From: a virus
Direction: 5' to 3' (one strand)
IMG/VR virus record: IMGVR_UViG_3300009413_000095
Location: 1-22,536 of that record
Length of the DNA: 22,536 bases
In this document: piece after piece, positions 5,291 through 22,406 of the stretch
How the letters are laid out: each line of letters opens with the position of its first letter
Numbering within the stretch: the first letter of the stretch is position 1
Translations under genes and position numbers: made by a program
The notes under the pieces: generated by a model
What the model was told of the DNA's origin: nothing
What the model saw: the letters and a program-made list of their open reading frames with translations, nothing else
The model's database searches: none

Positions 5291-7093
5291 TTATGACTGG
5301 GTTCCTGTCAACCCGTCAACAATAACTAGCCCGAACATGTCAGGACGAACCATCTGTTTGGCATAGCGAGTCATCACGCCCTTGCGAGGCACGAAGTCTT
5401 CGGTACCAAAGATGGTAGGCGTGACCTGTAGCGGAACATACGGAGCATAAACATAGCCGCTTTCGAGGAAGCTGCTACCTTTGCGCCCAACCAGCACGAC
5501 GTTACGAATGAAGTAAGGATCCACATGGATTTCCATCTTACGGCTCAATGAGCCAATATTGACGGCACCCCAGCTTCCCTTCTCCTCATCCACAGCGACG
5601 TTCGCCTTGAAGCCACTCGTAAACTCCAGAATCGAAGCAACTTCAGGGGAGCAAACAACAAAGTTTGCGCCACCGCGAAGCGTCTTACGATGGATTCGAG
5701 CACTCAAGTCATTGATTGTCTCAAGTAACGTCTCATACCATTCACTCACCGTACCGGTGAAGTCAGGATACAAGCTGTTCTGAGTCAGATTCCCAGACTC
5801 ACGGTCTAGGAACTTACCTGGCGAACGGCTCCACCAAAGTGTTCCAGCCGTAGCGTTCACGACAAGATCCTCAAGGATCTCCTGATCAATCTCAAGAGCG
5901 ATCTGCTCGGAGAGAATGCTCGTAAGCTCAACTTCAGCGTCGAGGTTATGATAAGCATTCAAATCCTGAGCCAGTTCCGGGGTCCACTTAGCCTTCAGCT
6001 TTTTAGTGATCGCCGTAACAGCCACAGAATCAACCTTGATGTTGATTTCTGGAATGCTCGGATTGTTTTCCAATCCCCAGCCACCGACGGTCGATGAACC
6101 GGCGATGGCACCAAATGGGTTACCAGCCGCCACAAAGCTATCTTTGATCGGTACGTATACGGTGTGCGACTGCGTCATAGAGTCAGCTAGCTGCGCGACA
6201 CTCAGCACCCCACCCGGTGATAGGGCGACGAGGTTGATCTGATCGCGCGCCGAACCCGAGAAGGTTGTCAGCGAGCGGGCAAAGAAGCTGCCCGAGCCAA
6301 CGCCTGCGACGAGAGCACTGCCGTTGGTGCCCAACACTTGGCCTGCGCCATCAGAACCCGAAGGAACAATAGCTACAAGATCAGCGCCGCCCGACAAATT
6401 AAAGCCGGATGCAGCCAAGACATGAGCATTTATAAGACCAATAGCATAGGTAGATGTGCCCGAAACGAGCGACGGATCGTCGCGTAGGATCTTAGCAAAA
6501 ATACCACCGTCGTCAGACTCGGCTGTGGTGATAAACGTACCGCTACCCATAAGGACGGGGGTGACGCTCGAAACCGATGCCGTGGGCGACGAATACCCGT
6601 TATTGAGTTCGTAGAAACTAAGAGAACCGGTAGAAAGACTGAGGTCTACACCACCTGTAATCTGCTGACCGACCCGACCACCGCCATAAAGCGAGTCGCC
6701 TACTTTTTCAGCAAGACGTGGGCCGCTATCCTGACCTGCACCATTAGCGCCGACAACGCCGCCGTAAGTAAAGTCGAGAAAGAAAATGAGCCCACTTGGT
6801 AGGCTCATAGGTTGAACGGATACAAGATCCTGTGCCAAAAGACCGCCGAATACACGGCGAACAATTGGAAATGCAACTGAGGCAAAGCCTTGAACATCAC
6901 CAGCTTGCATGGTGCTGACTTCTTTTAGAAGTTGAGCAGCTTGGTTTTCTAGGAGGCGAGCCATGGTGTTGCGACCAACATCATCGAGCCCTTCCAGAAG
7001 ACCAGTCTTCTCCCACTTATTAAGAATAGCTTCACCCTCGTGACTAAGCATACGCTGCTTAATCCCTTCTGTGAGTGTGTCTAACATAGACAT
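5291..7093 (-). CDS. gp23: Major capsid protein (gp23-like)
   Basis: A 600-residue protein with the gp23 layout: an N-terminal helical prosequence (ILNKWEKTGLLEGL...), then FPIVRRVFGGLLAQDLVSVQ and PMSLPSGLIFFLDF near residues 75-108, matching T4 gp23 MVRRAIPNLIAFDICGVQPM and SPTGQVFALR. The C-terminal part contains SYVYAP-type sequence (ESGYVYAPYVPLQVTPT) and RKGVMTRYAKQMVRPDMFG. It forms the hexamers of the head shell. The prosequence is expected to be removed by the gp21-type protease at an L/I-x-E site; candidates are LLE49 and LKE58. It is longer than T4 gp23 (521 residues), with a Gly/Ser/Ala-rich expansion around residues 120-330. The start has AAGGAGA 10 nt upstream. Confidence 0.95.
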   Translation of the reverse strand: MSMLDTLTEGIKQRMLSHEGEAILNKWEKTGLLEGLDDVGRNTMARLLENQAAQLLKEVSTMQAGDVQGFASVAFPIVRRVFGGLLAQDLVSVQPMSLPSGLIFFLDFTYGGVVGANGAGQDSGPRLAEKVGDSLYGGGRVGQQITGGVDLSLSTGSLSFYELNNGYSSPTASVSSVTPVLMGSGTFITTAESDDGGIFAKILRDDPSLVSGTSTYAIGLINAHVLAASGFNLSGGADLVAIVPSGSDGAGQVLGTNGSALVAGVGSGSFFARSLTTFSGSARDQINLVALSPGGVLSVAQLADSMTQSHTVYVPIKDSFVAAGNPFGAIAGSSTVGGWGLENNPSIPEINIKVDSVAVTAITKKLKAKWTPELAQDLNAYHNLDAEVELTSILSEQIALEIDQEILEDLVVNATAGTLWWSRSPGKFLDRESGNLTQNSLYPDFTGTVSEWYETLLETINDLSARIHRKTLRGGANFVVCSPEVASILEFTSGFKANVAVDEEKGSWGAVNIGSLSRKMEIHVDPYFIRNVVLVGRKGSSFLESGYVYAPYVPLQVTPTIFGTEDFVPRKGVMTRYAKQMVRPDMFGLVIVDGLTGTQS

Positions 7094-8669: not shown

Positions 8670-8981
8670 TTATCTCCGATTCCTAAAGCTTTTTCGGTTG
8701 CTTTCTCTAGGTTTAAATAGTTCTTCTCTCTGCTTATTTACTTTTTGGATTAATCTTTTTCTTTCCCGCTTTTTCTCTCGCCGTTCTTCAGAAGGTTTCT
8801 TAAAGTGGGTGCGACTTCGGGCTTCTTCTAAAATGCCCGCCGATTTAACCTTTTTAATAAACCGACGAACCATTTTTTCGGGATTGTCGTGGCATTCTTC
8901 AGCAGTCACAGTAATAAATTTGTGTAGTGGCTTACGACTAGCGTTAAACGACCGCTTTCGATGTGGGGTGTAATTTTTCAT
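8670..8981 (-). CDS. rpsU: Ribosomal protein bS21 homologue
   Basis: A 103-residue, very basic protein. Residues about 31-85 match bacterial bS21: HDNPEKMVRRFIKKVKSAGI, then LEEARSRTHFKKPSEERREK, parallel to E. coli [20 protein letters not shown] and [20 protein letters not shown]. The host protein is about 71 residues; this one has an extra N-terminal stretch of about 20 residues and a longer Arg/Lys-rich tail. bS21 sits at the small-subunit platform next to the anti-Shine-Dalgarno end of 16S rRNA and affects initiation. Phage-encoded bS21 is already known, notably in some pelagiphages. Here it is embedded in the head gene cluster, 7 nt after its upstream neighbour, so it is probably expressed late. 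Confidence 0.88.
   Translation of the reverse strand: MKNYTPHRKRSFNASRKPLHKFITVTAEECHDNPEKMVRRFIKKVKSAGILEEARSRTHFKKPSEERREKKRERKRLIQKVNKQREELFKPRESNRKSFRNRR
8713..8721 (-). promoter_or_regulatory. Candidate late promoter (ACTATTTAA) inside the bS21 gene
   Basis: The minus strand reads ACTATTTAA within the 3' part of the bS21 gene, 46 nt before the start of the 148-residue virion protein. The distance resembles that of the intergenic copies. It codes for part of the bS21 tail, so chance cannot be excluded for this copy alone. Confidence 0.35.
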
Positions 8982-9394: not shown

Positions 9395-9871
9395 TTATGA
9401 AATTTGATACCATTTTGAATTAGCTGCTGTGGATATCCATACAAATTCTATAGCTTGAGTTCCTGCCGATAATACAGGAGTTGACCCCTGAAAATTTCCA
9501 CTAAGCTGGATAAGAACATCGTCAGCCGCGCCATAGGAGTCCTCCACGATAATAATAAGTTTTTGCCCATGAATATCACCGTCTGGCACGGTCATTGTAT
9601 GAGCATCCATTCCTAATGACGGTTCAAACACGCCCGTGATGCTGCCCGCATCCAAATAGGATATACTCGTGTCAACACTTAATGTGCTGGTTGTTCCTGA
9701 CCCCAAATCCTGCGCAGTTGGAGCAACAACTTGATATCCCTTAATGTCTACACTTCCCGTAACTTGGATTACGTCGTCGGAAGTGTTGCCGAGAATTACT
9801 TTTCCGTCGGGAGTTGCTCTAAATCCCCAAGTGCCGTCAGTATCAGTGGCTCCAAAGCCTGCTCCAGCCAT
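9395..9871 (-). CDS. Beta-rich virion structural protein candidate
   Basis: A 158-residue protein rich in Gly, Ser, Thr, Asp and Val with no Cys-rich motif or membrane segment. The first 60 residues (TWGFRATPDGKVILGNTSDD, then VIQVTGSVDIKG) look like the repeated beta turns of phage fibre or decoration proteins; the C-terminus (FVWISTAANSKWYQIS) resembles the end of many phage surface proteins. Its ATG shares one base with the protease stop codon (TAATG), so translation is probably coupled to the protease. A capsid-surface protein or short fibre is likely from composition and location. No named family recognised. Confidence 0.6.
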   Translation of the reverse strand: MAGAGFGATDTDGTWGFRATPDGKVILGNTSDDVIQVTGSVDIKGYQVVAPTAQDLGSGTTSTLSVDTSISYLDAGSITGVFEPSLGMDAHTMTVPDGDIHGQKLIIIVEDSYGAADDVLIQLSGNFQGSTPVLSAGTQAIEFVWISTAANSKWYQIS

Positions 9872-10467
9872 TAGTCGTCTCCAATTACGTCGTTGAGGGC
9901 TCGATTGATGCGGTCAGCCTTTGTTAGGTGGGTTTTGACTTGGCTTTCTGCCACAAGGTAAGCACCTGTGGTGCTTGGCTCCGAGACTAGGTCAAAGCAC
10001 AGTAGCTGAAAGTCGTCCTCTACCATTGTTATATCACCTTGTTGGCGAGTGGACCCAAGCCCTCGGCTGGAAATACCGAGTTGGACGCCGCCCTCAACAA
10101 GTTGTTTGGCAATCTGTCCAGCAGGGGTCTCTAAGATTTTCATCTTGCCCATAACATCGTCACCTTTCCACCATACTTCTGTGACAAGATGGCTGGCGTT
10201 CTTGAGTTCTACAACTGAACTATCTGGGTGATCAAGTTCGCCGATGGCTCTACCTTCTTTAACGAGTTTTTCATAATTCTTCATTTCCCGCTCAAGAATG
10301 GGCTTGGGGTAAATCCGACCGTTGCCATTCTTTGTGCCAGCGGCTTGGATTTTGCCGGCAACGATGAGGTGGGTACCGTTCTTATTCCCCTCACGCTCCT
10401 CTTCGGTAAGAAGGTCGTCACTATAGTCTAGCTGCATAAACTCTTGTAAGACATATTTCTTATTCAT
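9871..10467 (-). CDS. gp21: Prohead maturation protease (gp21-like)
   Basis: A 198-residue serine protease of the T4 gp21 / herpesvirus assemblin-fold type. The motifs are in the expected order: GNGRIYPKPILEREM near residue 48, the catalytic His in GELDHPD (His80), the nucleophile Ser in GISSRGLGS (Ser133 or Ser134), and FDLVSEPS near residue 158. It acts inside the prohead, cutting the scaffold, the capsid prosequence and internal proteins after L/I-x-E. The N-terminus itself holds such sites (LQE9 and LTE22), consistent with self-processing. The start has AAGGAGA 8-9 nt upstream. A strong hairpin lies just before this ribosome binding site. Confidence 0.93.
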   Translation of the reverse strand: MNKKYVLQEFMQLDYSDDLLTEEEREGNKNGTHLIVAGKIQAAGTKNGNGRIYPKPILEREMKNYEKLVKEGRAIGELDHPDSSVVELKNASHLVTEVWWKGDDVMGKMKILETPAGQIAKQLVEGGVQLGISSRGLGSTRQQGDITMVEDDFQLLCFDLVSEPSTTGAYLVAESQVKTHLTKADRINRALNDVIGDD

Positions 10468-11413: not shown

Positions 11414-12215
11414 TTACTAATTTTTGTAGCTTAAGCACTTTCTTTAATTCGCGCGGTCCCACGGTAGAAACATTAAATTCGCGCACCTGCGCGAGCACGC
11501 GCTGAGTATTTTGGACCATTTGGTCATCAGACGACACGTCAGCCAATGAGAGGGATGCCTCCACCGCTTCGTGAATTCGCTTGAGTTCGCTGCCCAGCGC
11601 GAGCCTGAAATCGACGTCATTATCTCCAAAAGCTAAAATATACTTTTCTAAAAGATGACGTTGTTCGGGCAACAGGTGAGCATACCTGTCATTATAATTG
11701 GTCGCAAATTGTTTGACCACGAGCCCATCCACGGGTACCAGCGGGGCGCTAGCTTCCTCTTTCTCGCTGGAGAGCGTTTGAAGAATTTGACGTTCCAGAA
11801 TCACTTTTTGCTTGAGAGGGGTCTTATCACTAAAAATTTGAGCGATTGAGGCAACCGATCGGTAATTGGGAACAAAGTTAGAAAAGAATGATGCCCCCAC
11901 GCTTTGATTAATCTTCCGAATAATCGCAGACTGCTCTTGGAAGATTGCGGTTTTATCCAGTTGCCGGTGCGCCTCTTTGGCGCGGTGGATAGTTTTTTCA
12001 GCCGTATAAACATCGAATCCACTGCACTCAAGCAATGCTCGATAGCACTCCAGTTCTTTACGCAGTGGGGAGCCTGAGTGGAAATGTTCTCTTAAGAGGG
12101 CAGTAATGGCTCTTTTTTGTCGATGATTTTTCTGGACTACTGCGCGGGTCACCTCCCGTATGAGTGACTCAAAGATAAAAGCCGTATTTCGTTTTTTGTT
12201 ATGTTTCACTTTCAT
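11382..12215 (-). CDS. Helical protein downstream of portal, possible prohead core protein
   Basis: A 277-residue, mostly helical protein. The basic start (MKVKHNKKRNTAFIFESLIR) is followed by EVTRAVVQKNHRQKRAITAL, and later parts are charged helices (RELKKVLKLQKLVSEYKD). An L/I-x-E site (IRE) lies near residue 20, as in proteins trimmed by the head protease. The start overlaps the portal gene by 17 nt. I recall similar proteins after gene 20 in marine T4-like phages, always without function. It may replace T4 gp67/gp68 as a core component, but this is inferred only from its place between portal and protease. Confidence 0.65.
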   Translation of the reverse strand: MKVKHNKKRNTAFIFESLIREVTRAVVQKNHRQKRAITALLREHFHSGSPLRKELECYRALLECSGFDVYTAEKTIHRAKEAHRQLDKTAIFQEQSAIIRKINQSVGASFFSNFVPNYRSVASIAQIFSDKTPLKQKVILERQILQTLSSEKEEASAPLVPVDGLVVKQFATNYNDRYAHLLPEQRHLLEKYILAFGDNDVDFRLALGSELKRIHEAVEASLSLADVSSDDQMVQNTQRVLAQVREFNVSTVGPRELKKVLKLQKLVSEYKDDAPQD

Positions 12216-14061
12216 GCTTCTTTTCCAACTGAGTAATTAGTCTCGCGATCTCGATCTTTGTCTCTACAATCAAGTCTTCCTCTTTCTCCAATCCTGCGCT
12301 CACAACTCCCCGGCTTAAGGGTCCCATACCATCCGCTACTCCCTTAAATAGTCTGGCGGTACCCGGATAGGCCGCCTTTTCTCCTGCCGCGGCTAAGGCG
12401 CTACGTTTACGCGCTCCCGCGCGTCGTCTATCCGAAGCAACCGGGGTATAATCATCGCGCTGCCCTGGTTCAGCGAGAAGCGGACCTTCCTCGACCTCTT
12501 CTTCAGCGCCTTCTTCTCCGCCAAGCTCTTCACCGCCCATCTCACCTCCGAGTTCGCCACCCAGTTCTTCGCCCATACCACCACCGCCGCCGGTCGCGGC
12601 TGCTTCACCCGAAGCTTCAAGCAACGCAGTGTGTTTGGCGTCGGTATATTGATCACGCATAACGTGGATAATCTCGTCGTCATCCATCTTAAAGATGCGC
12701 TTGTATATCCATCGTTTAGAAAACAAGCCTTCAGTAGCTGCGCCGGCAATATCGAATTTGGTGCGTAAGTGTTCCAGTTCTTGGAGTTCGGCAATCTTAC
12801 TCGGATTATTGAGCGTCAAATTAAAGTTCATAAGGTCGTCATTACGATACCCCAAGCTAAACAAATGAATCACACAGATCTTTTGAATCTCTGCCAAGAC
12901 AACGCGCTGTAGACGTTGAATGGTGCGCGCAAAACGAATGTCTTTTTGGGCAAGCGTAGTTTTATCTTCCTGAGCATCAGACTGAGCCAGGTATGCCTTG
13001 GGAATTTTAATAGCGGAAAAAAGCTTGTCCCTCAAATAGTTCACATCGTCGATATCGCCCGTAAATTGTCCGCCGGCTAGCGTCTCGATGCGCGAAGAAT
13101 TTCCGGCTCTAACCGGAATATAGTAATCTTCGTCGATACTCATCGGGTTGTAACGCAGATCCACGCGGCCCGAATCAGCATCCACCACTTGATTGCGCTT
13201 CATTTGAGTTTTGACTTGTTCGATATATTGCTCCACATCTTCCGCTGGGATGTTCCCCACATCAATATAAAACACTCGGCGTTCGGGTGAGCGCACAATG
13301 CGATAAGCCATCATTGCATCTTCTAAAAGAATCAACTGTCTCCAAATACGGCGCGCCGACTCTAACACGGAGGTGCCGTAGGGAACATATTTATCATTGC
13401 CCAAGACGCGAAAATGAGCTATTTGCCAATTTTCAAAGGTGACTCCATCGCCCTCTCCGACCCAATAATACTGGATGTAATTTGGGTTCTGGGGGTCTTT
13501 TCCCTCAAGGCGTTCGACTTCTCTTACCGGGAGGGGGATCACATTGGTTATTCCTAATGCATCATCTATATCGAGATACAAAAAGTAATCTCCGTATTTG
13601 CACATGCTCCTGGCCCAACCAAAAAGGTTGGATTCCACGTTTAGCACATTGTAGAGGAGGGTGTGGAGCACGTCTTTTATCTCACGGTTATGACACTCAA
13701 TATGCACGAGAGGGGTGATCTCCGAAGATGTGGTAATCTCATCTGCATATACGTCAAGTGCTGACGCCAACTCCGGTGTGTATTCCATTTGTTCAAAATC
13801 AGTATACCGAACCTGCTTATTGCGTGCGGCGAGAACTTTATTTTGGAGACCGTCGAAAGGATTATAATATTCTTTTTTCTTAAACTCTTTGCCTGTCGCG
13901 GTCGTAAAATTATACTTTTTCACGGTGCGGGGTGACGACCGAGTTACGGAGGGCTGATTATAGTTGACCATGGGGCCGCTGAACAGCCTGGTCAGCCGGC
14001 GAAACAGAGTAGACTCTTGGTTCCGTGGGTTTTTTTGGTTGTTGTTAGTGTTGTCTGCCAT
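12199..14061 (-). CDS. gp20: Portal vertex protein (gp20-like)
   Basis: A 620-residue portal subunit. It contains the T4-type core: YTPELASALDVYADEITTSS near residue 93, IPLPVREVERLEG, HFRVLGNDKYVPYGTSVLES, then ARRIWRQLILLEDAMMAYRI and VRSPERRVFYIDVGNIP, and the channel region YLRDKLFSAIKIPKAYL. Twelve copies form the ring through which DNA enters and leaves; it also nucleates head assembly. After about residue 490 there is a low-complexity Gly/Glu tract (repeats of GGE and GEEL) and an acidic segment, then an Arg/Ala-rich end, which is longer than usual and probably flexible. It starts 3 nt after the terminase stop. Confidence 0.94.
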   Translation of the reverse strand: MADNTNNNQKNPRNQESTLFRRLTRLFSGPMVNYNQPSVTRSSPRTVKKYNFTTATGKEFKKKEYYNPFDGLQNKVLAARNKQVRYTDFEQMEYTPELASALDVYADEITTSSEITPLVHIECHNREIKDVLHTLLYNVLNVESNLFGWARSMCKYGDYFLYLDIDDALGITNVIPLPVREVERLEGKDPQNPNYIQYYWVGEGDGVTFENWQIAHFRVLGNDKYVPYGTSVLESARRIWRQLILLEDAMMAYRIVRSPERRVFYIDVGNIPAEDVEQYIEQVKTQMKRNQVVDADSGRVDLRYNPMSIDEDYYIPVRAGNSSRIETLAGGQFTGDIDDVNYLRDKLFSAIKIPKAYLAQSDAQEDKTTLAQKDIRFARTIQRLQRVVLAEIQKICVIHLFSLGYRNDDLMNFNLTLNNPSKIAELQELEHLRTKFDIAGAATEGLFSKRWIYKRIFKMDDDEIIHVMRDQYTDAKHTALLEASGEAAATGGGGGMGEELGGELGGEMGGEELGGEEGAEEEVEEGPLLAEPGQRDDYTPVASDRRRAGARKRSALAAAGEKAAYPGTARLFKGVADGMGPLSRGVVSAGLEKEEDLIVETKIEIARLITQLEKKHESET

Positions 14062-14064
14062 CGT

Positions 14065-15645
14065 TTATCCTTTTATTATCCACGAAAGATCATGTGTGCG
14101 TCCGTCAGATCCTTCAAATGAATTCTGTGCTTCTTTCTGAGGTTCGTATCCTTGCATCCCCTCAATCTTTGTATTGAGTGTCTTGCCGCCAATGCTAATT
14201 CCGCCGATCATTGCCTTCCTATACTCTATTTCCCTCTGGTTAACTGTCAGTGCCGTGTCTCTCACCCAGCATCCAATAGCTGTTGCAATAACAAGATCGT
14301 CATTGTAACTTCTCATCGCCTGGGGCCGCCCGTTGTGCCACACAAACGTTTTGATCTCGTTTGCAAGACGCTTGGAGTTGATAGTAATTAGTTTGTTTCT
14401 CACGAATTCTTCAAACTTGGCAATCACCAGGGGGCGAGTTTTCATAGACATGGTAAAGCCAGCCACTCCCCCGATAGCCTCTGCCGTAGCTTGGTCTACA
14501 TATTCATGCGTTGATCGGATGCTGTAATAAATGTTATTATACTCTAATTCAGCCAGCCTACTGAGCACTCCAATGCCTAATGAGTTGTTTTCTGTGACCA
14601 ACAGCGCGGAATTATATTCAGTGGCCATATTAACCAACAAAGGTGCAAACATATCGGGGGTTATTTTCCCTTGATACTCAGCAACTTGCTCCATTGTTTG
14701 CACATCTATAATCTGACACACGCTATAATCAGAGCCGTCACCTCGTGCAACGTCTGCAAGAGCTAAATAGTCTCTCCCGAGAACCGGCTCTTTCCAAATC
14801 CAGTAATTTCGATCAAATCCAGTTTTATGCTTGGGGTCGGTGACGCCCTCTAAAATGCGGCGCAGATCATCCCCATGCACCACTGTCTCGCCGGAGGCAT
14901 TAAAATTACACTCAAGCTCTTGGGCGATCTCCCGCTTAGACATGTTGCGTGTTTCTTTTACAAACCACGCCGCATCACGATCGGGGTGAACTTGCCAGGG
15001 AAGCTTTATGGGATTGAAGTCGTTTTTCCCTTCTTCTGCCTCCGAATATATTTTATGAAACCAATTCCCGACGCCATAGGGCGTGCTCAAGGCGATACAG
15101 GTGCCACCTGTGGAAAGAGTGGGATACAACCCGGCCCACATTTCATCCAGTCCCTCGACGATGGCAGCCTCATCCACCACAAGGAGGGAGAGAGCTTCGG
15201 AACGACCTGCGTCACCCGAAGTAGCTGACGCCTTAACTTGAGATCCATTGGATAATTCAAAAGAATTTCGGTTATCTATTTCAATGGCGGCAATACGAAG
15301 CCACGTTGGAAGATTTTTATAAATCGCTTTGGATTTTTTGACAAGGTTGGCAGCCGTTCCGAGCTTCGTGGCCACCACCAAAATATTTTTATCCCGATGG
15401 AATAACATCAACCAACACACATAGGCTGCCACAGTGGTCGATATCCCCAACTGGCGCGCCTTGAGAATAACATTAAAGCGGTGCCTTTTAAAATCCCTTA
15501 AAGCTTCTTCTTGAAACCCATACATGTCAAAAGGGATGAGCCCGTGCATCGGGTGAGAGATTTGGGCATATTGATTAGAAAAATAGACAGGATCTTTGCC
15601 GGATCTTACGACTTCTGCCATAACTTGTTTTTTGGTTAAGCTCAT
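14065..15645 (-). CDS. gp17: Terminase large subunit (gp17-like)
   Basis: A 526-residue packaging motor protein. ATPase: an adenine-binding Gln region (FDMYGFQEEAL, residues 39-49), a deviant Walker A KARQLGIST (62-70), Walker B LLVVDEAA (154-161) and the coupling motif ALSTP (185-189). Nuclease domain of RNase H fold: LADVARGDGSDYS with Asp298, LLVTENNSLG with Glu352, and SYNDDLVIATAIG with Asp449/450, the three acidic metal ligands. It cuts concatemeric DNA and pumps it through the portal. It is shorter than T4 gp17 (610 residues). The start ATG at 15645 follows GAGGTGTAA. It lies just upstream of portal rather than before the sheath as in T4. Confidence 0.96.
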   Translation of the reverse strand: MSLTKKQVMAEVVRSGKDPVYFSNQYAQISHPMHGLIPFDMYGFQEEALRDFKRHRFNVILKARQLGISTTVAAYVCWLMLFHRDKNILVVATKLGTAANLVKKSKAIYKNLPTWLRIAAIEIDNRNSFELSNGSQVKASATSGDAGRSEALSLLVVDEAAIVEGLDEMWAGLYPTLSTGGTCIALSTPYGVGNWFHKIYSEAEEGKNDFNPIKLPWQVHPDRDAAWFVKETRNMSKREIAQELECNFNASGETVVHGDDLRRILEGVTDPKHKTGFDRNYWIWKEPVLGRDYLALADVARGDGSDYSVCQIIDVQTMEQVAEYQGKITPDMFAPLLVNMATEYNSALLVTENNSLGIGVLSRLAELEYNNIYYSIRSTHEYVDQATAEAIGGVAGFTMSMKTRPLVIAKFEEFVRNKLITINSKRLANEIKTFVWHNGRPQAMRSYNDDLVIATAIGCWVRDTALTVNQREIEYRKAMIGGISIGGKTLNTKIEGMQGYEPQKEAQNSFEGSDGRTHDLSWIIKG

Positions 15646-15667: not shown

Positions 15668-16357
15668 TTAGTTTCTCTTCTTGTCGCGAGTTCCCCATTT
15701 GCCATACGAATCCGCTCGGCGAGCTTTGTAGTCTTGTTTCTTGGTGCTTTCTTTGCCAGTTCGCATTCCCAGTGATTCATCCTCTCGGGCATCGTATCCC
15801 TGTTTGGCAACCTTCGATCGCAAGTCATCCCCCTTGGGGCGCTTATCATTTTTAGGCTTGGGAGCTTTCCCTGAAGCTTTCTCCATGAACTTCTTGATAT
15901 TATCCTCTAGACGGTCCTGGGAAGGTTCGCCGATCACATCGACCCCCTCGATCCCCCCGATAGAATATTGCTTGGTAGCCTCCACCCAATTACGAATGCG
16001 GGAAGTGCTTTGAACCAAAATGTCAGCCGGGGCAACCTCGGTCAAAGAGACACTTTCTTTGGTCACTTTTTTATATTCTTTTTTCAGAAACTTAATAATG
16101 TCTCCAAATTTGCGCTCAATCTCATTTTCAAACTGAGCGCGCGGATGAACTTCCTTCATCATAACATCGCCCTGGTAGGTAACAACCATATTCTGGGCCG
16201 CAAATCTTACGCGGAAGCCGTCAATAAGGCGGCTATCTACAATCGGGTGACCTTCTTCGCGGGTCAAGCCAATTTTTTCATCCATCGTTTCATAGCCGTC
16301 ATAGGCGTTAGCGGCCGCTTGGTTCAAACCTTTAATTACATCTAGAATACTAGCCAT
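15668..16357 (-). CDS. Unrecognised protein upstream of terminase, basic C-terminal tail
   Basis: A 229-residue protein. The first 150 residues are a folded-looking alpha/beta region (DSRLIDGFRVRFAAQNMVVT, then EIERKFGDIIKFLKKEYKKV, then IRNWVEATKQYSIGG). From residue 160 on it is a Lys/Arg-rich, probably disordered tail. It precedes the terminase gene by 22 nt and overlaps the zinc-ribbon gene by 8 nt. In T4 the small terminase gp16 is next to gp17, and this gene or its upstream neighbour could fill that role, but I do not see the gp16 pattern. A DNA-binding or head-completion role would fit the basic tail. Function unknown. Confidence 0.65.
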   Translation of the reverse strand: MASILDVIKGLNQAAANAYDGYETMDEKIGLTREEGHPIVDSRLIDGFRVRFAAQNMVVTYQGDVMMKEVHPRAQFENEIERKFGDIIKFLKKEYKKVTKESVSLTEVAPADILVQSTSRIRNWVEATKQYSIGGIEGVDVIGEPSQDRLEDNIKKFMEKASGKAPKPKNDKRPKGDDLRSKVAKQGYDAREDESLGMRTGKESTKKQDYKARRADSYGKWGTRDKKRN

Positions 16358-16772
16358 TATTTTTTCTCCTTTTGAGCGAGAGTAAAATCTGCTCTTCGCC
16401 GGGTCGCTTGCCCTCTTTCCAGTCAGTTTCTCTGGCTATAACAAAATCCAGATAACAAAAATGACAGCAATCAAACCTATTCATATATAGGTCATCCTTT
16501 GGGGAAAATGAATATGTTTTACAGACCGGGCAGCTTCGATTGCCATGAGCGTGTCTTTGGGGCTTTGTGATGATTGTTTCCCCTAACTCTATTTTTTCTT
16601 TTTTGACCGCAGATTTGTGCTGTGCCTTGTTTCTTTTCTTGAGTTGGCGGAGGTATTCTCGTTCGCGCTGAGGATCCCAGGTGGAACGAAAATCTTGCGC
16701 TGCTACTTTGCCATATTGTTCTGCAATCGCCTTTTCTACTGCCGCTAAATAATTGGGGTCTTTTTTGCTCAC
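16350..16772 (-). CDS. Zinc-ribbon protein of unknown function
   Basis: A 140-residue protein. The N-terminal half is a charged helix (YLAAVEKAIAEQYGKVAAQD, then REREYLRQLKKRN). Residues 81-106 hold CPVC and CCHFC, a four-cysteine zinc-ribbon pattern (Cys81, Cys84, with Cys102/103 and Cys106). The sequence then continues YLDFVIARETDWKEGKRP. It overlaps the genes on both sides (4 nt upstream, 8 nt downstream), so it belongs to the packaging operon. Zinc ribbons of this kind commonly bind nucleic acid or proteins. It may be a packaging partner of the terminase; no family with a known role is recognised. Confidence 0.7.
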   Translation of the reverse strand: MSKKDPNYLAAVEKAIAEQYGKVAAQDFRSTWDPQREREYLRQLKKRNKAQHKSAVKKEKIELGETIITKPQRHAHGNRSCPVCKTYSFSPKDDLYMNRFDCCHFCYLDFVIARETDWKEGKRPGEEQILLSLKRRKNNG

Positions 16773-17155
16773 TGTTGGTAAACCGCTTTAACTATAGCCA
16801 CTGAAAAGCCCGCACCCATAAGAAGACCAGTCACAACACCAATGGTACCCTTGTTGCGGCTAAACCATGTGTTGTTCACCAAAGCGGCCTCACGAAGTTC
16901 TTTCACCGCTTGAAGGTAGATATCTTTTTCGGCGGCGCAGGCGCGGCGATCTACAGTGCAGTTTCCTAATTCCGCGGTGGTATCAACTTTGTTCTGCAAA
17001 ATCTTGCGGAAATCTTCCTCACTTACCAAAATCCCCACATAAGTATTTCCCTCCTGCTCCACGGTCGCCGGGCGTGGATCAAATGTTACAACCTCTTCTC
17101 CTCGGGCTGGTATTGCCAGAGCTAGAAGAGCGAAAAAAACACCAATGCATCTCAT
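16769..17155 (-). CDS. Exported protein with signal peptide and C-terminal membrane anchor
   Basis: A 128-residue protein. Residues 1-19 are a signal peptide (IGVFFALLALAIPARG) with probable cleavage before EEVV. The mature part has an N-terminal beta segment (TYVGILVSEEDFRKIL), two cysteines (in GNCTVDRRACAAEK) that could form a disulphide in the periplasm, a helix, and a C-terminal hydrophobic segment (GTIGVVTGLLMGAGFSVAIV). There is no lipobox. Many tailed phages carry a protein of this shape near lysis genes; a role in envelope disruption is possible. It follows the tubulin-like gene by 1 nt and overlaps the zinc-ribbon gene with ATGA-type coupling. Function unproven. Confidence 0.65.
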   Translation of the reverse strand: MRCIGVFFALLALAIPARGEEVVTFDPRPATVEQEGNTYVGILVSEEDFRKILQNKVDTTAELGNCTVDRRACAAEKDIYLQAVKELREAALVNNTWFSRNKGTIGVVTGLLMGAGFSVAIVKAVYQQ

Positions 17156-17156
17156 T

Positions 17157-18290
17157 TTACTTAAGGAACTTCTTCAAGCCCTCGATACGCTTAGAGGGGC
17201 GCTTTAGCCCGCTGACTAAAGTGTAAGTCACGAGCTTATCGCGCTTATTATCCTCGTAGATACCGCGATGAATGATGGCTCCTCCGGTAAGAGCCGCTAA
17301 AGTATCGAAGCCAAATTCAATGCTATCCATCAATCCCACAGTTTCTTCAAAGATTGCCTCGCCTCCCACCACAATGCATGCTGCACCGGTAGCAGTCGTC
17401 AGGTCAAAGCCTTCGGCCAGAAGAGTCTTCTCCAGATTCTTCTTAAGGGCGTTGGAGATGGCAGTTTCATTTTCTACATCTTTAACCGCAGTCACTCCCA
17501 TAATCATACACCCAGGCTGACGCATAATACTATCATAATCGGTCGCATCGAAAGTCGTGTATTCCGAATCTTGATTTGCTAGAACATTAAACACATGGAA
17601 AAGCCCAGCAACCGTGTTGTTGATGGTGGTCCAAAACTTTTTGACTGTAAGGCGCGGGTAAAGCTTTTTGATTTTTTCATTGTCAACCATAATGAACGGC
17701 GCAATCTTTCCTTTTTCCGCCAAGCCACACAGTTGGGCGATGCGAGCGTGAGCATTTTTGGCTACGGTAGGTGAGGCTGACTCGCCGGCTGTGGGTAGCG
17801 ACGCTACAACACCGACACGCTTATCTACATCTTCCACCCCAATATAGGTGAAATATTTCTTAGCCACCTTGATGAGGGTGTTGACGGTTCCTCCACCAGA
17901 GCCTCCCGAGACGCCAAGGCAGATGAGGACACGGTCAACGTTATTCCCAAAAACCTCACGGAAGAGGTTGAAAACTTCTTGCTCTTTGCGTTCAATAGCC
18001 GCCTGAGCTTTAGCTTGGTCTTTACCTGCGCCTTGTTCACCATGTTCGTCAACAAGAAACTTTTGGTTTTCTGGGATGTCTAGTCCGTTTAGGTCGGCTC
18101 GGGCTGTATTAACAGCCACGGTCTTGGTATAGCCCATATCATAAAACGCCTTTGCCATCCGTCCGCCGCCTTGGCCAGCGCCCACGATAGCAAACGTCAA
18201 AGCGCCGCCGGACTTATCTTCGACAGCCTCTTCTTCTTCGTTTAGGTCGGGATCGTAATCCTCAATGTCTAGTGTAGGAATGTCTACCAT
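17157..18290 (-). CDS. Tubulin/FtsZ-family GTPase
   Basis: A 377-residue cytoskeletal GTPase. An acidic N-terminal tail (residues 1-28) precedes a tubulin-like fold: nucleotide loop IVGAGQGGGRMAKAF (35-49), VAVNTARADLNGL (58-70), the tubulin signature LGVSGGSGGGTVNTL (125-139), then SLPTAGES and NNTVAGLFHVFN. The T7 synergy region FDATDYDSIMRQPGCMIMG (247-265) aligns with the FtsZ region NLDFADVxxVM, keeping both aspartates that trigger hydrolysis in the neighbouring subunit; the FtsZ Asn is replaced. This suggests polymerisation-dependent GTPase activity. Phage relatives include TubZ and PhuZ, filaments that segregate plasmid-like genomes or centre the phage nucleus. The C-terminus is basic (RPSKRIEGLKKFLK), not the acidic tail of PhuZ. 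It sits between possible lysis and packaging genes. Subfamily unresolved. Confidence 0.9.
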   Translation of the reverse strand: MVDIPTLDIEDYDPDLNEEEEAVEDKSGGALTFAIVGAGQGGGRMAKAFYDMGYTKTVAVNTARADLNGLDIPENQKFLVDEHGEQGAGKDQAKAQAAIERKEQEVFNLFREVFGNNVDRVLICLGVSGGSGGGTVNTLIKVAKKYFTYIGVEDVDKRVGVVASLPTAGESASPTVAKNAHARIAQLCGLAEKGKIAPFIMVDNEKIKKLYPRLTVKKFWTTINNTVAGLFHVFNVLANQDSEYTTFDATDYDSIMRQPGCMIMGVTAVKDVENETAISNALKKNLEKTLLAEGFDLTTATGAACIVVGGEAIFEETVGLMDSIEFGFDTLAALTGGAIIHRGIYEDNKRDKLVTYTLVSGLKRPSKRIEGLKKFLK

Positions 18291-18300
18291 CTGATTCTCC

Positions 18301-18615
18301 TTAAAAATCCAATTCTTTGTAAAGTTGAGATAGCGCCTCTAATCGCTTCTGTCGGTCGGTTATCTCTGTTGTTAAATTCAGTTTGCGGGTATAAATATTT
18401 TTTATTGCCCCAATTTTATCTTTCTCTAGTTCGGCACGAATTTGGTTTTCTTTCGCTGCCACCTTCATATCTGTAACTATTCTATCAACAATCTCAGATC
18501 TGTTAACCCCCGGCTTAATAAGAAGGTAAAAATAGTAGGCGACCAGCACAAGAGTCACTGACGCCAGAATCGCCTTCCATCCGTATTCCTTTATTTTGAA
18601 TTTGATCCAGTTCAC
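18301..18615 (-). CDS. Inner-membrane-spanin-like protein
   Basis: A 104-residue protein with one N-terminal membrane segment (residues 14-33, ILASVTLVLVAYYFYLLI) and a long charged helix with coiled-coil character to the C-terminus. This is the layout of Rz-type inner-membrane spanins, which span the periplasm with an outer-membrane partner and fuse the membranes at the end of lysis. The start is GTG at 18615, overlapping the stop of the holin-like gene (GTGA), so translation is coupled. No nested Rz1-type lipoprotein was found in this gene. Other single-pass coiled-coil proteins would look the same, so the call depends on the neighbouring holin-like gene. Confidence 0.55.
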   Translation of the reverse strand: MNWIKFKIKEYGWKAILASVTLVLVAYYFYLLIKPGVNRSEIVDRIVTDMKVAAKENQIRAELEKDKIGAIKNIYTRKLNLTTEITDRQKRLEALSQLYKELDF

Positions 18616-18797
18616 TTACCATGCTTCCATTTGCTGGCAATGTCTGCCGCCCCCTGTAAACCAATATAAGCTAGAGATACCGCAACCCAGTCATCACTTG
18701 CGAGCATTCCTGCCCCTAAAAACATAGTGGAAGTTATCCATACCATTAATTTTCGTGATGCCCATTTTCCGAGCCACTTGTCTAATTTTTCGTGCAT
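18612..18797 (-). CDS. Holin-like small membrane protein
   Basis: A 61-residue protein: charged N-terminus (MHEKLDKWLGKWASRK), two hydrophobic segments (about 17-33 and 36-53) separated by ASDDW, and a short basic tail (KWKHGK). The pattern RK..., then a membrane segment, SDDW and AYIGLQGAADI resembles small phage holins. Holins form lesions in the inner membrane at a set time to start lysis. It has a very strong ribosome binding site (AGGAGGTG), which lies in the loop of a 10-bp hairpin that also covers the first two bases of the start codon. The next gene is a spanin-like protein. No endolysin gene is in the window, so lysis function is probable, not shown. Confidence 0.6.
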   Translation of the reverse strand: MHEKLDKWLGKWASRKLMVWITSTMFLGAGMLASDDWVAVSLAYIGLQGAADIASKWKHGK

Positions 18798-18842: not shown

Positions 18843-19649
18843 TTACTCTCCCTGGTAAGGGGCGAAAATATCCACGTCGCCAGCATTTAAATCCGCTGCG
18901 ACTTTATCGACCTCGCCGGCATCTGGTTCCAATACAGGCATCTTATCTCGCGACTCCGCCCATGGCGGGGGGCTTTGTTTCACCGCATCGAGTCGATCCG
19001 CTAACACAAGTTTGGCTTTATCAACGCTGCCGAAAGTGTCTTCTAAGACGCGCTTGGCAGTTTCAGCATCCACAAACTCTCCAATACCATTGGCTACAAA
19101 TTGGTTAATAAAATTATTAACATCCTCTGGGGTGGCAGTCATTATGTTGTGCGGGCTCGGGTCTTTCCTCATTCCAGGGTGAAAGGCATCCCCCACAAGG
19201 GCTAGGACTTTTACCAAATCCTCCCCCGGCATATCCACAACTTTACCCCCGAGTTGAACACCGGGTCCCGCCGCAAGAACGGAAGCTGCCCAGCGGTGGT
19301 GCCCGTCCATAATATAGCCGTCTTTTGAAATAACTGCTCCCAAATCCCCACCAGGCCCATTTTTAAAAGGTCCAGGTAGCTTTCCCATCATCGAGATGGC
19401 CATCCCCAAGGCTTGACCCAATTTTATTTCTTGTTGTGACGGCTTCAATTGAGTGGCAGGAATAGCAGCATTATCCTTGACAATGACTACGTCATCTTCA
19501 ATTTTCCCATCCTTTTTTCCGCCGGTTGCTACCTTTTTCGCACGCTCACCCGATGCTGGCTTGGGAAAAGGAAATTTGGTAGCATCAAATTTTCGTTCCT
19601 GAACTACTCTCTTCACCACTTCGGTTATGAACTTTTTCGTAATTTTCAT
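18843..19649 (-). CDS. ParB/sulfiredoxin-fold protein with capsid-targeting-like N-terminus
   Basis: A 268-residue protein. Residues 62-150 match a ParB-like nuclease/sulfiredoxin fold: conserved LKPSQQEIKLGQALGMA, then GAVISKDGYIMDGHHRWAAS with the hallmark DGHHR (115-119), where ParB-fold proteins bind nucleotide or DNA ends. The N-terminus MKITKKFITE closely resembles the T4 capsid-targeting peptide MKTYQEFIAE and ends in the same I-x-E cleavage motif, suggesting packaging inside the head and injection with DNA. Residues 20-60 are basic. The ribosome binding site GAGGAGATG is strong, and a promoter-like CCTATTTA lies 29 nt upstream of the start. It precedes the possible lysis genes. Enzymatic function unknown; could be a DNase, kinase or nucleotide-binding protein. 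Confidence 0.72.
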   Translation of the reverse strand: MKITKKFITEVVKRVVQERKFDATKFPFPKPASGERAKKVATGGKKDGKIEDDVVIVKDNAAIPATQLKPSQQEIKLGQALGMAISMMGKLPGPFKNGPGGDLGAVISKDGYIMDGHHRWAASVLAAGPGVQLGGKVVDMPGEDLVKVLALVGDAFHPGMRKDPSPHNIMTATPEDVNNFINQFVANGIGEFVDAETAKRVLEDTFGSVDKAKLVLADRLDAVKQSPPPWAESRDKMPVLEPDAGEVDKVAADLNAGDVDIFAPYQGE

Positions 19650-19690: not shown

Positions 19691-19870
19691 CTAATGTCTT
19701 TTCGCCCGCTTATGTAGCTCCGCCAAACCAGCGGCCACCCTTACTTCTTTTCCTTTATAAATAATGGTTGCAACCTTTTCCCAAGTGTGGTATTCTTTGA
19801 GGAGACCTATCTTCCATCCTTCATGGTCCGCCTGAGTGTATTTGAACCTTACTAAATCGCCGGCTCTCAT
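19691..19870 (-). CDS. Small KOW/SH3-like protein, copy 2
   Basis: A 59-residue protein found by direct translation: it starts MRAGDLVRFKYTQADHEGWK, continues IGLLKEY, and ends AELHKRAKRH. The ATG overlaps the stop of the hydroxylase-like gene as ATGA, which supports real, coupled translation. The start M-R/K-AGDLV followed by G-hydrophobic-L resembles the small SH3/KOW-barrel proteins seen in many phages, and the gene on the other side of the hydroxylase begins the same way (MKAGDLV). The two are probably paralogues. Function unknown; such barrels usually bind nucleic acid or protein. Confidence 0.72.
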   Translation of the reverse strand: MRAGDLVRFKYTQADHEGWKIGLLKEYHTWEKVATIIYKGKEVRVAAGLAELHKRAKRH

Positions 19871-20301
19871 CTATTGCGTGACCTTTTCTCAAGAGTGCCT
19901 GTGAGCCAATCTGTCAATGGGAAAACAACATTCCATGACTGGTTCTGGTTTTTCATGTGGTGATTCCAATGCCACCAAAAGTATTTCTGTGAGAACTTTG
20001 GATGATGATGTAAAATAGTATGAACTATAGAGAACAATATCCCATATATGACAACCCCGAAGAAGAATCCTGAAGATATCCACATCGTGGGAAAATGCAT
20101 CATTGCCAGTAGGGGTGCCCCGAACTGCTCAAGGGCGGAGGCTTTTGTGTCATAGAATCCATTTTTTCTAGCAATAATGTGATGTTCTCTTAGGTGAAAA
20201 CCGAATGCCGAGTTCTCTGCCTTGCCTAGACCATGGTACAGATAGCGGTGAACCAAGTACTCTATTACGTTTCCATAAATCAAACCGCATATAATACCCA
20301 C
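19867..20301 (-). CDS. Fatty-acid hydroxylase / sterol desaturase-like membrane di-iron protein
   Basis: A 144-residue membrane protein with the histidine clusters of the fatty acid hydroxylase superfamily: EYLVHRYLYH (His18, His23), HLREHH (His36, His40, His41), HTILHHHP (His94, His98-100) and HWNHH (His111, His114, His115). These bind two irons that activate oxygen to hydroxylate lipid chains or related substrates. Two hydrophobic segments lie near residues 62-92. It is short for the family (usually over 200 residues), lacking N-terminal membrane helices. The start is GTG at 20301 with GAGG about 9 nt upstream; an in-frame TAA lies shortly before, so no longer ATG form exists. It lies in the cytochrome c cassette. 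Substrate unknown. Confidence 0.82.
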   Translation of the reverse strand: MGIICGLIYGNVIEYLVHRYLYHGLGKAENSAFGFHLREHHIIARKNGFYDTKASALEQFGAPLLAMMHFPTMWISSGFFFGVVIYGILFSIVHTILHHHPKFSQKYFWWHWNHHMKNQNQSWNVVFPLTDWLTGTLEKRSRNR

Positions 20302-20704: not shown

Positions 20705-21043
20705 TCATTTTTCGCCGAAAGAAAGGCGAATATAATCTATCACGAATATGACCTGCCCTACATTAAGAAGATTCTTCCATGCAGGCATCCGCCCTTTGCC
20801 CTCAAAAATACTTTGGAGTAACGCCCCGTCGGTCTTGGCAAGGATGGTCTTGTCATTCACGAAGTCCGCTCCCAACCCGTTAAGTCCAGTCCCGTCATAT
20901 CCGTGACACGACGTGCAGTACATTATATAAGTTCGTTCGCCGGGGTGTTTTGCGGCATCAGGCTTGGCCACGTCTGGTATTCCCGCATCAGGCGGGGTGG
21001 CTTGGGAGCATCCGATTAGGGTGAGGAGTATTAACTTTTTCAT
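20705..21043 (-). CDS. Lipoprotein class I cytochrome c
   Basis: A 112-residue monohaem cytochrome c. The N-terminus MKKLILLTLIGC has a lipobox (LIGC), so Cys12 is probably lipidated and the protein tethered to a membrane in the periplasm. A Pro/Asp/Ala linker (PPDAGIPDVAKPDAAKHPGE) leads to the cytochrome fold: haem site CTSCH (Cys43, Cys46, His47), GYDGTG, and the axial Met in GRMPAW (Met86), then the C-terminal helix VGQVIFVIDYIRL. All essential residues are present. It would carry electrons between respiratory complexes or to an oxygenase and needs the host's haem-attachment system. The linker style resembles myxobacteria-like lipoproteins, suggesting acquisition from a host. It leads the accessory cassette. 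Confidence 0.9.
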   Translation of the reverse strand: MKKLILLTLIGCSQATPPDAGIPDVAKPDAAKHPGERTYIMYCTSCHGYDGTGLNGLGADFVNDKTILAKTDGALLQSIFEGKGRMPAWKNLLNVGQVIFVIDYIRLSFGEK

Positions 21044-21046
21044 TTT

Positions 21047-21202
21047 TCACTCAAATGTAAGTTGGCCCGAATAGGGGACAATATAAAATTCTTTTCTCAA
21101 GGCTTTGGCAATTGCTTCCGCCAGTTCTTTTTTTTCTTCGGGGCTCAATTTACAATTAGATGTTTGAGCCAAGACTTTTTCTATGTTCTTACTGATTGAC
21201 AT
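21047..21202 (-). CDS. Small helical protein before cytochrome c
   Basis: A 51-residue protein found by direct translation, from the ATG at 21202 to a TGA at 21049-21047, 3 nt before the cytochrome start. It overlaps the end of the HNH gene by 14 nt. The sequence is helical (SPEEKKELAEAIAKALRKEF) and ends YIVPYSGQLTFE. No membrane segment, signal peptide or metal motif. No family recognised; its tight spacing is the main support. Confidence 0.6.
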   Translation of the reverse strand: MSISKNIEKVLAQTSNCKLSPEEKKELAEAIAKALRKEFYIVPYSGQLTFE

Positions 21203-22406
21203 TTTCTTTTGTTGCCTTCAAATACTCGTTCAGTTTTTCGGGAAAGTTAAGATAAGGATACTCTGGACCGTGAAGTTCTACCATCCTTTCATCATGGATT
21301 TTCGCTGCTTCTTCAGGAGTGCTGCACGCTCCGAGGTAAAAGGATTTTCTTTTTCTTGTTCCACCCGTTGTGATCACCTCATTTGTCTTGTAGGATGGTA
21401 ACCAAGAGTCTTTTTTATATTGTCTGCCGGCAGCTTTAAACGTGACACCAAAATAACCAGTTGTCCTACTTCGCCACCTGACGCCAAACTCAGAAGTGAG
21501 GGTTCTCGTGGGTTTGTCATTATATTTTAAAATTCTACCTACAGTGTGATATTCCCACTCCGCACCGTTACGGGTCCGATAACCTCGGCGATTGAACTCT
21601 CGTGAGATTTCTTTCAAACTGTCTCCCCTCTCATATAACTCTAGAACTTCATCAAGGTACTTGAGGGCAAATGCTGTTTTGGAGTCTTCGTGATAGTTGC
21701 GATTAGATAAAGGATTAATCTCCACTGTATCTTTCTCGGCAATCCACTGGTCTATTTTTTCTGGATAGTTAAACAGCCTGACAGTGTGCTGGTCCTCTGG
21801 GACGTATTTTGCAGTGGAGCGATCATATGCTTCAGCAGCCTCCTCCTTTGTGGAGTACATACCAATATATGGTCTAGGTGCTCCATTATCCAGAGCTAGC
21901 TGGCTTGTTGTAGCCATCCAAGCTTTCCGATAGGATTCCGGCTGATCTCTTTTATTATTTAGTTTGCGAACCCCTTTGAAGCCTGATTTGTTGTCCTTGG
22001 TGGCTCCTCGGTTGGAGCAGTTCTCCTTATGGGTCACCGACCGAAGGTTACACTTTCTATTGTCTAAAGTATCCCCACTGATGTGATCTGTCATCATACC
22101 TTTTGGAGTTTGGTTGATCAAAACATGAAGAGATAGATTCTTACGCCTGCGGCGGCGGCCGCCGTTTGGTCGCCAGCCTCTTTCTTTTTCTTTAGTCGTT
22201 TGGTTTACCTTGATCCAGCCCCCATCAGGGTGAGGAACTTGGGTGTTCACATACCACCTTATTGAGTGACCAAGTTTTTGATCTTTTTTGATAACCCAAT
22301 GATGCTGACTGACCTTTTTCCAGTCGTCAGCATCAATAAGAACTTTAAACTCGCCCCATTTCTTACTTTTAATAATAAACTCTTTTGTTTCCAACTTATC
22401 CTCCAT
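21189..22406 (-). CDS. HNH endonuclease with two AP2 domains
   Basis: A 405-residue mobile-type endonuclease. Residues 9-70 are the usual N-terminal domain of HNH-AP2 homing enzymes (VLIDADDWKKVSQHHWVIKK). A basic run (GGRRRRRKNLSLH) leads into the HNH core DHISGDTLDNRKCNLR (residues 107-122, with His94, His108 and Asn116 as candidate catalytic residues). A first AP2 DNA-binding domain spans about 141-217 (SGFKGVR, then YIGMYSTKEEAAEAYD), a helix-turn-helix of the resolvase/recombinase type about 247-296 (LYERGDSLKEISREFNRRGY), and a second AP2 domain about 317-392 (GYFGVTF, then FYLGACSTPEEAAKIHDE). Two AP2 units plus an HTH suggest recognition of a long target. It stands 20 nt after the gp46-like gene as a free-standing gene; no intron is evident. 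Confidence 0.9.
   Translation of the reverse strand: MEDKLETKEFIIKSKKWGEFKVLIDADDWKKVSQHHWVIKKDQKLGHSIRWYVNTQVPHPDGGWIKVNQTTKEKERGWRPNGGRRRRRKNLSLHVLINQTPKGMMTDHISGDTLDNRKCNLRSVTHKENCSNRGATKDNKSGFKGVRKLNNKRDQPESYRKAWMATTSQLALDNGAPRPYIGMYSTKEEAAEAYDRSTAKYVPEDQHTVRLFNYPEKIDQWIAEKDTVEINPLSNRNYHEDSKTAFALKYLDEVLELYERGDSLKEISREFNRRGYRTRNGAEWEYHTVGRILKYNDKPTRTLTSEFGVRWRSRTTGYFGVTFKAAGRQYKKDSWLPSYKTNEVITTGGTRKRKSFYLGACSTPEEAAKIHDERMVELHGPEYPYLNFPEKLNEYLKATKENVNQ

Follow-up and report, generated by a model that had tools for sequence, protein, structure and literature searches.

Phage tubulins are known chiefly as PhuZ, which belongs to the phage nucleus, and as TubZ, which belongs to plasmid-like partition. 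What, then, does a tubulin-type GTPase do in a T4-type phage, where a preliminary description made from the DNA alone had placed one between possible lysis and packaging genes? Our study examined this gene in a 22,536-bp IMG/VR record, the whole of which is referred to here as the window (Table 1), together with its relatives in other phages and in bacteria.

The minus-strand ORF starts with ATG, fills its interval exactly and is preceded by a good ribosome-binding site (AAGGAG); a plus-strand reading of the same interval was rejected, as it has stops throughout. The 377-aa protein matched Pfam Tubulin PF00091 (E=3.9e-9, 37.5 bits, cut-off 33) and TubZ-like_C PF22453 (E=5.3e-7, 30.2 bits, cut-off 26), and a search of PHROGs gave no family for it. 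The T1, T4 and T7 motifs were assigned by alignment with FtsZ, TubZ and PhuZ, and a tubulin GTPase domain carrying all three places the protein within the tubulin/FtsZ superfamily. The nucleotide loop, tubulin signature and T7 aspartates claimed in the preliminary description were all found, with the signature slightly off consensus (SGGSGGG; GGGTGTG in FtsZ). D248 and D251, within FDATD, stand at the positions of the FtsZ T7 aspartates, and the T7 loop is invariant across three phage clades and the aligned cellular homologues. The same description's basic C-terminus and acidic N-terminal tail were borne out by residue counts, with 12 D/E against 1 K/R in the first 26–27 residues and a basic final stretch of 15 residues (KRPSKRIEGLKKFLK). 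The proteins of phage clades 2 and 3 continue past the basic C-terminal helix into a short acidic end.

Table 1. Position, strand and supporting evidence for the tubulin gene, its motifs and tails, and the neighbouring phage genes in the window
Feature	Position	Strand	Evidence
Tubulin/FtsZ-superfamily GTPase gene (377 aa)	17157..18290	-	Pfam, AlphaFold2, Foldseek, pN/pS
T1 nucleotide-binding loop GAGQGGGR, residues 37-44	18159..18182	-	Motif alignment; loop as in TubZ
T4 tubulin signature loop SGGSGGG, residues 128-134	17889..17909	-	Motif alignment
T7 loop YTTFDATDYDS, residues 244-254	17529..17561	-	Motif alignment
Acidic N-terminal tail, residues 1-27	18210..18290	-	Sequence comparison, low model confidence
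Basic C-terminal helix KRPSKRIEGLKKFLK, residues 363-377	17160..17204	-	Sequence, model, alignment
Terminase large subunit, T4 gp17 type	14065..15645	-	Pfam Terminase_6N 5.4e-8; phrog_2 1e-46
T4-type portal gp20	12199..14061	-	Portal_T4 7.3e-80
T4-type prohead protease gp21	9871..10467	-	Peptidase_S77 1.3e-29
T4-type major capsid protein gp23	5291..7093	-	Gp23 1.4e-72
104-aa protein, N-terminal TM then charged region; 5' flank of insertion point	18301..18615	-	Conserved synteny
61-aa hydrophobic protein, holin-like by eye	18612..18797	-	Conserved synteny, median 80% identity
128-aa protein, signal-peptide-like N-terminus and C-terminal TM; 3' flank	16769..17155	-	Synteny, hydropathy
140-aa protein with CxxC pairs, conserved neighbour	16350..16772	-	Synteny
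229-aa conserved neighbour upstream of terminase	15668..16357	-	Synteny

Structure prediction, a superfamily tree and a search for the phage nucleus shell protein chimallin had been proposed as checks. AlphaFold2, given a diverse alignment that included homologues from the bacterial class Phycisphaerae, returned a tubulin-superfamily fold with a pLDDT of 86.7 and a pTM of 0.88, in which residues 12-25 were the sole segment below pLDDT 50; close homologues alone gave a pLDDT of 52 and an unusable model. Foldseek against the PDB ranked TubZ top (E about 1e-21, TM 0.74-0.76), followed by archaeal FtsZ and CetZ (CetZ TM 0.67-0.73). The best viral predicted structure was A0A6J5RW92, an 'FtsZ' of an uncultured Caudovirales phage (TM 0.86), which at 26% identity is too distant for the same clade. 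PhuZ predicted structures were far behind, at a TM of about 0.5 (0.53 for PhuZ Noxifer).

Close relatives (83-94%) were found on 80 retained IMG/VR contigs, three of them 172-190 kb in length, and a broader pattern set recovered 320 IMG/VR stretches encoding relatives, which removes the possibility, raised at the outset, that related phage genes might be lacking. Phage clades 2 (L122-L132) and 3 (L133-L136) stand at about 65% identity, and three further sequences (L294-L296) are 72-73% identical to the clade 3 tubulin. Across clades 1-3 the tubulins share about 65% identity and the terminases only about 34-40%. Among cultured phages the only match was weak, to the FtsZ-like gp138 of Bacillus phage G (E=0.02, 21% identity), which lies on a long separate branch. 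The pN/pS of the tubulin was 0.068 over seven phages, compared with 0.185 for terminase, 0.158 for the protease, 0.240 for the portal and 0.137 for the 61-aa neighbour; the tubulin is under strong purifying selection and is the most constrained of the five genes compared. This tubulin-like GTPase family is widespread in uncultured T4-type phages.

Homologues of T4 gp17, gp20, gp21 and gp23 identify the window as that of a T4-type myovirus, and the claim of a tubulin GTPase in such a phage therefore holds, with the gene complete, constrained and accompanied by T4-type head and packaging genes. Ribosomal protein bS21 is encoded between the head genes (8670-8981, minus strand, Pfam E=3.6e-11) and is conserved in relatives. 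Towards the other end of the window lie, all on the minus strand, a fatty acid hydroxylase (19867-20301, Pfam E=3e-7) and a small c-type-cytochrome-like protein (CTSCHG; 20705-21043), which are possible auxiliary metabolic genes, and, at the window edge, a 405-aa protein resembling an HNH/AP2 homing endonuclease (21189-22406). Recurrent N-termini (MKKLLTEWRKFLKE or MKITKSQLRQLIKEE) that resemble T4 capsid-targeting sequences were seen in the protein at 18843-19649 (minus strand) and in many ORFs of G003 (L141-L150). The 18843-19649 protein also has a ParB-like DGHHRW motif, and its candidacy as a partition partner was rejected, as its place beside the tubulin is not conserved. The T4 late promoter TATAAATA was likewise discounted, its two matches in the window both being opposite to the gene strand and at chance frequency.

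The tubulin is co-directional with its neighbours at gaps of 1-10 nt, the 128-aa gene beginning 1 nt past the tubulin stop, and small membrane proteins with TM segments by hydropathy lie on both sides. When clade 1 contigs were laid out, the order was constant: 18612-18301-tubulin-16769-16350-15668-terminase-portal. Sampling by terminase gave 37 contigs with enough upstream sequence to score the tubulin, which was present in 34 of them, including every one (34/34) with a terminase identity of at least 75%. The terminases of the three contigs without it are 63-70% identical. One of these, from a sister phage (L348), keeps every flanking gene in order and provides a natural empty site (L348:4031-4745), where the homologues of the 18301 and 16769 genes overlap directly; the remainder of its 55-kb contig held no tubulin. 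Clade 2 again has the gene near the terminase, with neighbours that differ from those of clade 1. In clade 3 its neighbours are recA-like and dUTPase-like genes, or else a phoH-like gene lies close by; these clade 2 and 3 names were given by reading the sequences. IscU-, IscA- and ferredoxin-like genes adjoin the clade 2 tubulin (L123:4809-5769, L131:6845-7466).

The tubulin is thus a discrete one-gene module, strongly retained once present. Given the clean empty site of the sister phage and the different locations of the gene in other clades, the tubulin does not belong to the lysis or packaging machinery, and the suggested link to packaging or a packaging site was not upheld. Of the position first described, the nearby T4-type packaging genes stood, and the flanking membrane proteins as lysis genes are plausible only; the 61-aa protein showed no TM above threshold in a 19-residue hydropathy scan. 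The tubulin might nonetheless work with these membrane proteins, for example as a membrane-tethered ring or timer that localizes lysis or remodels the envelope, and its constant place among small membrane proteins in clade 1, inserted exactly between two possible lysis genes, fits such a role. We consider this unlikely, however, as L348 retains the flanking genes without a tubulin, and clades 2 and 3 carry a tubulin without these flanks.

Comparison with the known tubulin systems placed the protein apart from each of them. Identity as FtsZ, or as a recent copy of a host FtsZ, was rejected, since the TIGR00065 score was 46.9 bits against a cut-off of 295.2 and the protein lies on a long separate branch; in place of the FtsA/ZipA-binding C-terminal peptide of FtsZ, it ends in the basic helix. 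The FtsZl1/Tubulin_2 family (Makarova and Koonin 2010, PMC2875224) was matched at 16.2 bits, below its cut-off of 27. TubZ of Bacillus plasmids and phage c-st shares the fold, the C-terminal domain and the GQGGGR T1 loop, but is only about 20-26% identical and does not cluster with the phage protein in the tree. These likenesses would accord with a plasmid-like or pseudolysogenic phage whose genome is partitioned by a TubZRC-type system. Each of the four plasmid regions inspected has a small hypothetical ORF (about 93-117 aa) ahead of tubZ, whereas no TubR-like gene was recognized beside the phage tubulin, where the neighbouring ORFs, which encode membrane, CxxC or uncharacterized proteins, had no HTH family match. 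Furthermore, no tubC-like iteron array was found in 16.3-19.7 kb of the window, and T4-type head and packaging genes surround the tubulin, so that partition of this type seems very improbable.

PhuZ of the Chimalliviridae resembles the protein in being a phage-encoded tubulin and in its proposed role, but the structural match is poor, the two do not cluster in the tree, and the acidic C-terminal tail of PhuZ is replaced by a basic end. The chimallin search was run on two large relatives (190,528 and 178,630 bp) and gave no match to 201phi2-1 gp105, a single-sequence search being weak for a divergent chimallin; single-sequence queries with the 201phi2-1 subunits of the nucleus-phage RNA polymerase likewise gave no convincing match in these two genomes. 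The head genes of the window are of the T4 type. The suggestion of a tubulin other than PhuZ or TubZ is therefore correct at the level of sequence family and partners, while the predicted fold remains closest to TubZ.

The phylogenetic inference, from trees that set the phage and Phycisphaerae proteins beside PhuZ, TubZ, FtsZ and phage G gp138, placed the phage tubulins in a group distinct from PhuZ, TubZ and FtsZ. The phage proteins fall in a single clade (100/100), which joins a family from Phycisphaerae, and together these are split from three plasmid TubZ proteins by a 100/100 branch. The distinct phage group put forward in the preliminary description was supported; what it had missed were the closest relatives, chromosomal Phycisphaerae tubulins, most of them with a histone H1-like tail. 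A T4-type phage tubulin group that is neither TubZ nor PhuZ and is tied to Phycisphaerae tubulins appears new, and was absent from the literature searched, in a comparison made without one 2025 catalogue of chimallin/phuZ phages.

Family patterns run against 84,980 species genomes found two MAGs, both of Phycisphaerae (Planctomycetota), at 49-50% identity to the phage tubulin (main copies L139 and L140); one has a contig with two tandem paralogues and the other has cellular genes beside the tubulin. Strong matches occurred in 4 of 392 sampled Planctomycetota genomes, all in one order, within which 28 of 161 genomes were positive, many of them having two or three copies. When 159 genomes of this order were searched with PF00091, 26 gave matches above the cut-off and one further genome a sub-threshold match. 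As all 26 were positive for the phage-related family, no canonical FtsZ or other PF00091 protein above the cut-off was seen in these 159 genomes. Phycisphaerae have been described as dividing by binary fission without FtsZ (PMC8882080, PMC5147048). The cellular genes have ordinary chromosomal surroundings, with ruv, his, cysS, pgk and gap identified by eye, and one positive genome is a single 2.96-Mb contig.

This unnamed family (L139, L140, L164-L166, L176-L200) contains the closest non-viral relatives of the phage form. Both share the IPxLxxE N-terminal segment, the GTPase motifs and a C-terminal P..R.EEL/EGL segment, and the phage tubulin belongs to the family by that first segment and by clade membership. 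About twenty cellular main copies have Lys/Arg-rich N-tails of 47-270 residues before a conserved IPxLxLEQYE; Pfam names no family for these tails, and 'H1-like' describes their composition, not their function. Most main copies combine such a tail with housekeeping neighbours and often a tandem pair, whereas in the phage form the tail is short and acidic, and the protein ends in a basic KKFLK. That acidic tail holds IPxLxxEDxxP, common to the Phycisphaerae homologues, where it follows the H1-like tail. The window copy has only 16 codons between the upstream stop and its ATG, and the longest pre-domain stretch among 86 phage copies was 47 residues. The H1-like tail does not define the family, because some cellular copies are without it too (L187, L190, L191).

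Several features of the cellular copies were also recorded. On contigs L164, L165, L166 and L177-L196 most tubulins are H1-like-tailed and often form a tandem pair, and on L170-L175 (G270, G218, G166) there is a divergent second copy. The L170 second copy is probably a non-GTPase partner subunit, judging from its sequence, because its T4 signature loop has been lost (ESEKGG). Second copies with a C-terminal extension were seen at L187:2-1405 (minus strand) and L190:2751-4109 (plus strand), the latter extension resembling the end of an NtrC-type AAA+ domain (SWPGNIREL). No IMG/VR relative of the cell-type tubulin L176 was found when it was searched with its own patterns.

The phage clade groups with the second-copy cellular paralogues (98/89), and an alternative tree with all cellular proteins in one clade was not rejected (p-AU 0.059). 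Capture of the phage gene from a Phycisphaerae-like donor would be the simpler reading, and this ancestry suggests a Planctomycetota host. A tmRNA gene in the 178,630-bp related phage (L158:4108-4430, minus strand) was rejected as a host marker, as its tag, ANDDFQLALAA, is unlike those of the Phycisphaerae order, in which every normal tag that could be read has G as its first residue and most tags have MAA as their last three; the tmRNA DNA itself had only short, weak matches, in phages.

A relative this close to chromosomal tubulins (about 50% identity) could interfere with its host, the phage subunit co-assembling with, capping or redirecting the host's own tubulin of this family, or FtsZ where the host has one, and so blocking division or freeing the host nucleoid for the phage. 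Having lost a DNA-binding tail, the phage subunit would be well suited to disrupting a host filament that is bound to the nucleoid; most cellular main copies have an H1-like tail that the phage form lacks, and the phage gene travels as an accessory module of one gene. PhuZ filaments mixed from the subunits of two phages are known to be non-functional (PMC13282480), which also counts in favour of interference. However, all catalytic motifs are kept under very strong constraint, beyond the need of a pure poison, and the three tail-less cellular copies show that a missing tail is not peculiar to phages. Furthermore, Phycisphaerae are no more than candidate hosts, and the related-phage tmRNA tag differs from the tags of the order. 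We regard host interference as the main alternative reading, though a less likely one.

Our preferred reading, to which we assign a probability of roughly 0.55, is that the protein forms an active cytomotive filament and thereby positions phage DNA or capsids. An active polymer is indicated by the retained GTPase motifs, the strong constraint and the TubZ-like fold, and positioning is put forward as its most likely job by analogy with PhuZ, which places and centres the phage nucleus and transports capsids (PMC13282480). The phage tubulin would bind GTP and polymerize head to tail into dynamic filaments of TubZ-like subunits, and its operon position suggests that it would be made together with the head and packaging proteins. 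The filaments may then bring their cargo, either the replicating mass of phage DNA or capsids, to a suitable position in the cell by pushing or carrying it. The phage subunit is without the H1-like tail that could let the cellular relatives bind DNA, and no TubR-like adaptor or tubC-like array was recognized beside its gene, so that contact with the cargo would have to be made by the acidic N-tail, by the basic C-terminal helix or by a partner encoded elsewhere. The acidic tail and the want of a recognized adaptor weigh against a positioning filament in this respect, as do the tubulin-free sister phage at the same site and the failure to find a partner gene conserved across the three tubulin-bearing phage clades. 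T4-type phages in general are without a tubulin, and this was also counted against positioning. A fuller version, in which some Phycisphaerae, as members of the FtsZ-less Planctomycetota, use a tubulin that binds the nucleoid directly via its H1-like tail and T4-type phages captured it, stripped the tail and run a third phage spindle without a nucleus, is doubtful as a whole.

In summary, it is probable that these phages assemble filaments of their own from a type of tubulin that had not been described in phages before, as indicated by an intact tubulin GTPase whose closest relatives are in Phycisphaerae, bacteria described as being without FtsZ. If the fuller version were true, a third phage spindle, neither PhuZ nor TubZRC, would move phage DNA or capsids without a phage nucleus. 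A third tubulin group, present in ordinary T4-type phages, would mean that phage filaments need not be tied to either the phage nucleus or plasmid-like partition, and would raise the question of what phage filaments do without a nucleus. The cellular side of the finding may matter more than the phage side, as the Phycisphaerae tubulins with intact GTPase motifs are concrete candidates for a part in division or nucleoid segregation in these bacteria.
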